Shown: positions 44,601-54,738 of the stretch, in pieces
Layout: each line of letters begins with the position of its first letter
Numbering within the stretch: position 1 is the first letter of the stretch
NCBI GenBank assembly: GCA_021774785.1
Contig: JAJFIQ010000019.1
Span: 682,001 to 746,000 of the forward strand
DNA from: Emcibacter sp.
Lineage (GTDB): Bacteria; Pseudomonadota; Alphaproteobacteria; Sphingomonadales; Emcibacteraceae
DNA: 64,000 nucleotides
Direction: 5' to 3'
The notes under the pieces: model-generated
The model's input: the letters and a program-made list of their open reading frames with translations, nothing else
What the model was told of the DNA's origin: nothing
The model's database searches: none
Made by a program: the position numbers and the translations under genes

Positions 44601-45704
44601 GTGAACGAAAAAAAATCCTACACATATAAAGATGCCGGTGTTGATATTGATGCGGGAAATGACCTTGTGGAAGCCATCAAACCGGCGGCTGCCTCAACCA
44701 AAAGGTCTGGCTGTACGTCAGGTCTTGGTGGGTTCGGTGCCTTGTTTGACTTAAAAGCGGCCGGCTATACGGATCCGATCCTTGTTTCCGGCACTGATGG
44801 TGTCGGCACCAAGCTAAAAGTCGCCATAGAATCGGGCAAGCATGACACGGTCGGTATTGATCTGGTGGCTATGTGCGTCAATGATTTGATTGTACAGGGT
44901 GCGGAACCGTTATTCTTCCTTGATTATTTTGCCACTGGTCATCTGAGCGTTGAAGCCGGACGCGCCATTATCGAAGGTATTGCTGAAGGCTGTCGCCTGT
45001 CAAATGCAGCCCTTATTGGCGGCGAAACGGCTGAAATGCCAGGCATGTACAAAGACGGCGACTATGACCTTGCCGGTTTTTGTGTCGGTGCGGTTGAGCG
45101 GGATAATATCCTGACCGGTGACGGGGTCTCGGACGGTGATATTTTGTTAGGCCTTGCCTCAAGCGGTGTTCATTCTAACGGTTTCTCTCTTGTCCGCCGT
45201 CTGGTGAAGGATTCAGGAATCGCATACAATGACCCCTGCCCCTTTGATGTGTCACAAGAATTTGGAACCGCCCTGTTGGAACCTACAAGAATTTACGTAA
45301 AAAGCACTTTAGCCGCCCTTAAAGCAGGCCATATCAAGGCTATTTCCCATATCACTGGCGGTGGCTTTGTGGAAAATATCCCCCGTATCCTGCCCGAAGC
45401 AGTCTCTGCCCATGTGGACGCAAGCTGCTGGACGCTACCGCCAGTCTTTGACTGGTTAAGGGAAGCAGGCAACCTAGAACCACTGGAAATGGCAAAGACA
45501 TTTAACTGTGGCATTGGCCTTGTGGTCATCGTCAATGCAGATGGTGCGGACGAGACGCGAAAAATATTCGAACATATGGGCGAAACGGTCTATAGTTTGG
45601 GACATGTGGTAAAAAGATCGGAAAATGAACCGGCAACCGTTGTAACAGGCTCTGCCGGAAGCTGGGGTTACGATACTTCTTGGCAGGCTCTTTCCTCCAA
45701 CTAA
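44601..45704 (+). CDS. purM: Phosphoribosylformylglycinamidine cyclo-ligase (AIR synthetase)
   Basis: Closes the imidazole ring in purine synthesis. The 367-aa protein starts at a GTG with GGTGGAAG just upstream. It shows [62 protein letters not shown] in pieces, [27 protein letters not shown] and the C-terminal [14 protein letters not shown]. It is followed after 13 bp by purN. Confidence 0.97.
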
Positions 45705-53704: not shown

Positions 53705-53743
53705 ATCGCGTCCATTTGAGTGCTAATATTTAACACCGCAGTG

Positions 53744-53772
53744 CTTATATCCCAGCTCTTCTATACAGTCAA
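53744..53772 (-). promoter_or_regulatory. Candidate sigma-70 promoter for hisZ-purA
   Basis: On the minus strand TTGACT (53772-53767), a 17-bp spacer and TATAAG (53749-53744) give a near-consensus promoter about 40 bp before the hisZ ATG. Confidence 0.65.
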
Positions 53773-53876
53773 TTGGGACATGCATGTGTTTTTTTAAGAT
53801 TCACAGAAAAACTGGGTGTGAGAAGTCCAACACTTATTCCAAATGGACGAAAACAGAGGTTGACGGCTTTAAGTAT

Positions 53877-54521
53877 CTATAATTTCACGGCAGAAATATC
53901 ACTAAGTTCTTTCACTTTAAAATAAATACTTTCCTGCCTGTCCATATCAAGATTTTTGTAATCTTTAAGGATATGCATAAGATTAAAAGGATTTAGACCA
54001 CGTTCAGGATGTTCTCCGTTAAAAAAGAAACCGTCCCATGCCCTTGGAATATAATTGATAAACCATTTACCTGAATGAACCTCTCTGGGAGATAAACGGT
54101 TGCTGGTTCCTGTAACCAGCACCCCCCCTGGTTTCAGAACACGGTCTATTTCTTTCAAAGCCGGTTCCATATCTTCCGGAGATATATATTCCAGAACACT
54201 ATTACACAGCACAACGTCAAAACGTTCAGCGTCATAAGACAACTGAGTTCCGGGTGTTATACAATCATAATTGACCTTATCAGAGACCCCATATTGTGCA
54301 GCATTTAGTTCTGCGAGATCAATCAAATCCTGATTAATATCAACAGCGCATACATCATGGCCTAAAATAGCTGCAACAACGGAAGTAGTGCCAAAATTGC
54401 GCCAAAATTCTAATATCTGACTTCTCTTATCACCTATAATGGCTTCAATAAGGTGCCTCACATGTTGCCATTCATATTCAACATAACCACCTACCCACTT
54501 GTTATAGGGGCCAAGTCCCAT
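53877..54521 (-). CDS. SAM-dependent methyltransferase-like protein with altered motif I
   Basis: A 214-aa class I methyltransferase fold: post-motif-I acidic strand HDVCAVDINQDLIDLAEL, motif II/III FDVVLCNSVLEYISPEDM, and RVLKPGGVLVTGTSNR. The glycine-rich SAM loop, normally close to LEFGCNFG, reads ILEFWRNFGTTS, so a Gly and a Cys are replaced by Trp-Arg. The substrate is unknown. It lies between the serCA and hisZ-purA blocks, with AT-rich flanks, and may be an insertion. A 31-codon frame precedes it by 2 bp. Confidence 0.8.
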   Translation of the reverse strand: MGLGPYNKWVGGYVEYEWQHVRHLIEAIIGDKRSQILEFWRNFGTTSVVAAILGHDVCAVDINQDLIDLAELNAAQYGVSDKVNYDCITPGTQLSYDAERFDVVLCNSVLEYISPEDMEPALKEIDRVLKPGGVLVTGTSNRLSPREVHSGKWFINYIPRAWDGFFFNGEHPERGLNPFNLMHILKDYKNLDMDRQESIYFKVKELSDISAVKL

Positions 54522-54523
54522 TT

Positions 54524-54619
54524 TTATGCCCTGTCATTGAATTTTCTATGTTTTTCTTCATCTTTTAGTAATGTTGAAATATGCGTGTTCGCAAGCTCTG
54601 CACGATGTACATTTTCCAT
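54524..54619 (-). CDS. Possible 31-aa peptide upstream of the methyltransferase
   Basis: The frame runs from ATG 54619 to TAA 54524, ending 2 bp before the methyltransferase ATG. The peptide is highly charged and helical (RAELANTHISTLLKDEEKHR). A weak GAGAAAG lies upstream. It could be a small protein, a translationally coupled leader, or chance. Confidence 0.3.
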   Translation of the reverse strand: MENVHRAELANTHISTLLKDEEKHRKFNDRA

Positions 54620-54738
54620 GTTTACTTTCTCATGATATTTTAATTTCTTAAATTCAATAAACGTAATTCCTCCGCATAAAATAGCAGACTATAAAAAAAT
54701 AGTATAACAATAAATAAAGGTCTTTATTTAATGAAGTC

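Follow-up and report, generated by a model that had tools for sequence, protein, structure and literature searches.

An additional gene between serA and hisZ

The window, that is, the whole 64-kb stretch of Emcibacter DNA that was analysed, carries a 214-aa open reading frame (ORF) on its minus strand (53877-54521) between serA and hisZ. The Pfam Methyltransf_11 profile matched this ORF with an E value of 1.1e-15, and the Methyltransf_11 and Methyltransf_25 matches span its residues 48-136. The encoded protein shares 45-49% identity with three orthologues (G026/L028, G028/L029 and G021/L030) from another genus of the same family, and a phylogenetic tree placed it as their sister (support 99/98). 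Together, the profile match and the placement within the family indicate that the ORF belongs by descent to the class I SAM-dependent methyltransferases, as the open remnant of such a gene. A profile built from the alignment of 38 sequences matched various methyltransferases in the PDB, and none of the listed NCBIfam families (12 and 23) reached cut-off.

The gene occupies an AT-rich insert (approximately 53780-54735, minus strand; ends placed by eye and not exact) with 36% G+C, compared with 48-50% for the four neighbouring genes measured. That this gene is extra at the site is a direct observation. A hisZ-based search of the family detected loci in 27 of 32 genomes, the window's own among them, and none of the 26 relatives with a hisZ locus has a methyltransferase gene beside it; at the window's own locus, the same approach does return the methyltransferase. 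The 13 same-genus relatives in which hisZ was located all have serA next to it and none has a methyltransferase gene there, while in 13 other family members serA was seen in 11 and no methyltransferase was found within a flank of 1.5 kb (less at contig ends). Measured between matched ends, the serA-hisZ gap is ~48-201 bp in same-genus relatives versus ~1 kb in the window. No sign of an insertion element was found in the interval, where repeats are short. On the hisZ side of the insert, a promoter-like stretch for hisZ was recognised by eye (TTGACT, 17 nt, TATAAG; 53744-53772, minus strand) that is common to relatives with a long serA-hisZ interval, but a consensus scan did not list it.

This interval takes two forms in the genus, a short one of ~48-79 bp (7/13) and a long one of ~148-201 bp (6/13); by eye, the long form holds a hairpin resembling a terminator and, ahead of hisZ, a promoter-like stretch that is conserved (L046-L057, L070). 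The window interval (53705-54738) keeps the promoter-like stretch, and its nearest relatives by hisZ (G012 and G003) have the short form.

In their own genomes, the orthologues lie at a different site: the methyltransferase gene adjoins a fumarylacetoacetate-hydrolase (FAH)-family gene, downstream of lipA, rather than serA or hisZ. In the window's genus, this FAH-type gene was found in 3 of 16 genomes, at only 49-50% identity. As a separate observation, two genomes encode a small protein rich in NPYG-type repeats (L072, 5560-5985; L073, 4160-4603) convergent to an intact methyltransferase gene.

In 32 genomes of the family and 396 from across the order (E up to 1e-12), searches recovered five close relatives in addition to the gene in the window: three come from a different genus of the family (45-49% identity) and two from a different family within the order (42%). 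The 15 further genomes of the genus that were searched yielded no close copy, and a class-wide sample (385 genomes, E up to 1e-40) returned the window's own gene only. The window protein found no relative in genome_contigs or viral_contigs, and only partial matches (~27-34% identity) among plasmids (10 records) and phages (1 record); with alignment A1 as the query, viral_contigs yielded two distant loci. Taken with the low G+C of the insert, the tree and the different site in the orthologues, the absence of the gene beside hisZ in relatives is consistent with a gene that was acquired, or relocated within the family, and that then probably decayed.

A Trp-Arg pair in motif I

The coding strand at 54410-54390 (minus strand) reads GAATTTTGGCGCAATTTTGGC and encodes E-F-W-R-N-F-G, in which the codons TGG CGC (54399-54404) specify Trp-Arg where homologues have Gly-Cys or Gly-Ser. 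To place this pair in its family, we used a profile search of named genomes, which located 54 loci, including some in Emcibacteraceae, Gammaproteobacteria, Oxalobacteraceae and Sphingomonadaceae; the 38 closest (L076-L113) served for column counts, codons and the tree, and 16 distant ones (L114-L129) were omitted. One of the two search patterns contains motif I itself, the other being W[IV]GGYV[DE]Y. The 23 of 38 loci that carry the latter were therefore counted apart, since the remaining 15 may have been found via the motif-containing pattern. The five rows of alignment A1 are the same genes as L076, L077, L078 and, by sequence, L100 and L105, all of which fall within the 23.

Among these 23 motif-independent homologues, all have Gly in the first position; in the second, 21 have Cys and two have Ser. 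A Gly codon stands first in all 38 homologues, and all five close relatives have G-C. The initial annotation had remarked that motif I reads LEFWRNFGTTS where G-C is usual, and this was borne out: the WR pair was seen in this genome only, and no homologue has it as a conserved state. Judged on this comparison, WR is the derived state and G-C (rarely G-S) the family state.

A glycine-rich motif I and an acidic residue after strand 2 are described as SAM-binding hallmarks of class I enzymes in PMC13223930. The first of these (loosely GxGxG; family form E-F-G-C-N-x-G) is absent from the ORF, with G replaced by W and C by R, and the Methyltransf_11/25 match starts at profile position 13, immediately past the loop. 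The acidic residue is retained, as a D at a column invariant in 38/38 homologues; we take this residue, Asp61 of the ORF, to be the one ending strand 2 of the fold. The first Gly of motif I forms a turn at the SAM pocket. A Trp in its place should block this pocket, and the ORF product would naturally be expected to have lost SAM binding.

More than one route could have produced the pair. The initial annotation had proposed a compensated frameshift, with one extra T and one missing T, and this arithmetic is correct for a GGC TGC precursor. Present in 27/38 homologues, GGC TGC can be turned into TGG CGC by gaining one base and losing another, or by three substitutions. The three nearest orthologues, by contrast, carry GGC TGT, GGC TGT and GGA TGT. 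From GGG TGC, two point substitutions suffice; this precursor has a prior of ~0.05 from the codon usage of the window and is found in 2/38 homologues. A compensated frameshift is thus possible, as the bases fit GGC TGC, but it is not needed. In a decaying gene, two adjacent point changes would require no restoration of the frame.

The same annotation pointed to nine bases repeated in tandem as a sign of a templated or slippage mutation. The repeat is real, with AATTTTGGC occurring twice within 54390-54410 (minus strand; 11 nt start to start), but it is not strictly tandem, as the copies are 2 nt apart with GC between them. A repeat scan of the 64-kb window found four exact 9-mer repeats with a period of 9-15, this pair included. 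When coding versions of EFWRNFG were drawn with a codon-usage prior taken from the long open frames of the window, some 9-mer occurred twice with a probability of 0.126 (~1/8). Since a repeat of this kind is expected in about one in eight such versions, it is weak evidence for templating, and an origin by templating or slippage was not borne out by a feature that is not rare given the residues.

Motif I could nevertheless have been rewritten in one step, by slippage or a templated copy of the adjacent AATTTTGGC, or by two offsetting one-base indels. The exact fit to a GGC TGC precursor, a pair that predominates at 27/38, speaks for such a route, and two neighbouring radical changes by chance would be somewhat unlikely. 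Against it stand the alternative precursor GGG TGC (~0.05; 2/38), which requires two point changes only, the expectation of a 9-mer repeat in ~13% of EFWRNFG coding sequences, and the TGT rather than TGC of the three nearest orthologues. In addition, searches of genome_contigs, the genus, the family, the order and the class-wide sample did not find a close relative bearing the precursor. The window's genome has no second close copy, its other three matches being 27-30% identical, so that no distant conversion donor was seen. We give the one-step or two-indel route somewhat less than an even chance, and consider a pair of point substitutions about as likely as a single short event affecting several bases (or two indels). 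This is a question of route only, and either answer is compatible with a pseudogene.

Further lesions and the state of the neighbouring genes

The C-terminus, the N-terminus and a core strand also depart from the homologues. An in-frame TAG (53877-53879, minus strand) closes the ORF at a place where the orthologues have Ala, Phe and Asn (placed by eye on translations), and this stop cuts off the conserved C-terminus. The missing segment, ILKAVNLCFRPFGISVGLLTPSFSVNLKK, is still encoded past the stop in the same frame (53790-53876, minus strand); its score against each of the three orthologues was reached by 0/5000 shuffles. The core strand GG-VLVTGT (54105-54128, minus strand) is one residue shorter than in homologues, the column absent from PGG-VLVTGTS being occupied in 38/38. 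Both the stop and the missing residue are direct observations.

The ORF begins MGLGPYNKW, and the orthologue segment that precedes this point is plainly absent from it. A probable remnant of the N-terminus was recognised in another frame (54524-54619, minus strand; 31 codons plus TAA), running from 54619 to 54524 and ending ...LKDEEKHRKFNDRA, followed by TAA 2 nt ahead of the ATG of the 214-aa ORF. Its similarity to the orthologue N-termini is moderate: of 5000 shuffles, 26 reached the score against L028, 249 that against L029, for which the best local alignment was out of the expected register, and 1899 that against L030, and the summed score against all three was reached by 48/5000. The peptide therefore has moderate support as a trace of the original N-terminus.

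With a core residue and the N-terminal segment absent and a stop before the C-terminus, the ORF retains neither intact core strands nor a full-length frame, and it carries at least two disabling changes relative to intact orthologues, as expected of a pseudogene. The orthologues share the core and C-terminus of the window gene, but their motif I carries G-C and their frames are open and include both termini.

Errors of sequencing or assembly could have made some or all of these defects. Seven consecutive G adjoin the missing core residue and five consecutive A the proposed frame change at the N-terminus, both of which would suit such errors, but a nonsense codon and a three-base loss are untypical of run-length errors. 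The neighbouring genes also argue against this explanation. Comparison of the window with the open frames of five same-genus relatives showed that, in the part from 41.7 to 64 kb, 17 syntenic genes have a single-frame match in at least one relative (the gene furthest along is clipped by the window end), with no internal stop or frame change in any of them over ~22 kb. Eight flagged coding-strand rows of real genes were inspected, the rest being judged antisense or out of frame from strand and identity. In all eight, the stops lie upstream of start codons; in the least plain of them, the GTG start at 44601 follows both stops. In a ninth flagged row, which compares L133 with the gene at 57517-56378, a piece in a second frame (57626-57486) lies for the most part upstream of the ATG; we read it as a 5' difference in an unbroken gene. 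As the 17 syntenic genes are unbroken, the defects seem to be confined to the methyltransferase gene, and we regard sequence error as an unlikely explanation.

Two observations concern other genomes. The hisZ match in G005 (L050) spans one TAG, and the serA match in G008 (L049/L137) falls into two pieces in different frames at ~residue 256, on a draft contig.

A gene in probable decay

We conclude that the ORF at 53877-54521 is very probably a young pseudogene of an acquired class I methyltransferase gene. On this reading, an AT-rich methyltransferase gene would have entered the serA-hisZ interval in one lineage of the Emcibacteraceae and would no longer have been maintained there. The Gly-Cys of the SAM loop would have become Trp-Arg, the conserved N-terminal segment would have been cut off, presumably by a frameshift, a nonsense codon would have removed the conserved C-terminus, and one core-strand residue would have been lost. 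The WR pair would then be one decay mutation among several. Taken alongside the missing termini and the shorter core strand, the altered SAM loop points most simply to loss of function, and the gene is probably inactive.

Most conserved residues are retained, which is a point against a pseudogene. The window gene (G000) departs from the homologues at 2 of 17 invariant columns, the SAM-loop Gly and one V to I change. When homologues were left out one at a time and counted likewise (gaps included), three departed at two columns and two at three, so two departures are not exceptional. Another 32 columns show conservation of 90% or more, and G000 departs at seven of these. Four are residue changes, at the loop Cys and at one Pro, one Val and one Gly; the other three are gaps, of which two lie past the ORF end and one before the ORF start. 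Nor is the branch of the window protein (0.86) clearly longer than the orthologue branches, whose sums from the same node are 0.66 to 0.84. The moderate support for the N-terminal remnant likewise weighs against a pseudogene. Should the gene indeed be dying, its decay would be recent.

The 214-aa frame is open and its ATG lies just past the upstream TAA, a further point against a pseudogene, and a shortened protein could still be produced from it. Such a protein might have a non-catalytic or altered methyltransferase-like role, in keeping with the open frame and the family residues that were kept, and the position of the start codon right after the upstream stop would permit re-initiation. Set against this, no close copy turned up in the 15 further genomes of the genus, and damage to the SAM loop is accompanied by loss of both conserved termini and of one residue in a core strand; we consider a retained product with such a role quite improbable. 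The initial annotation also suggested that the enzyme may have taken on a different role; plain decay is the likelier reading, given that the N-terminal segment is absent, the C-terminus is cut off by an in-frame stop and a core-strand residue is missing. We attach very little probability to the combined scenario in which Gly-Cys was swapped for Trp-Arg by a single templated event with the frame kept and the shortened product persists in another role that does not involve SAM binding.

As a general kind, bacterial pseudogenes of acquired genes resemble the window gene in patchiness, AT-richness and defects by stop, frame and residue, and no feature tested distinguishes it from them. In comparison with the enzymes of Pfam Methyltransf_11 and Methyltransf_25, the ORF is alike in its profile match and differs in the Trp at the first Gly of motif I. 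The literature consulted, including that on template switching and pseudogenes, contained nothing on this gene, which does not imply its absence from print.

If the one-step route were proved, motif I of this gene would illustrate, on a small scale but cleanly, how a single mutation can alter several bases of a bacterial coding sequence. As it stands, a double change that keeps the frame and has a repeat nearby need not imply a templated frameshift. This ORF is open and looks full, but it is probably a decaying gene and does not warrant annotation as an active methyltransferase.
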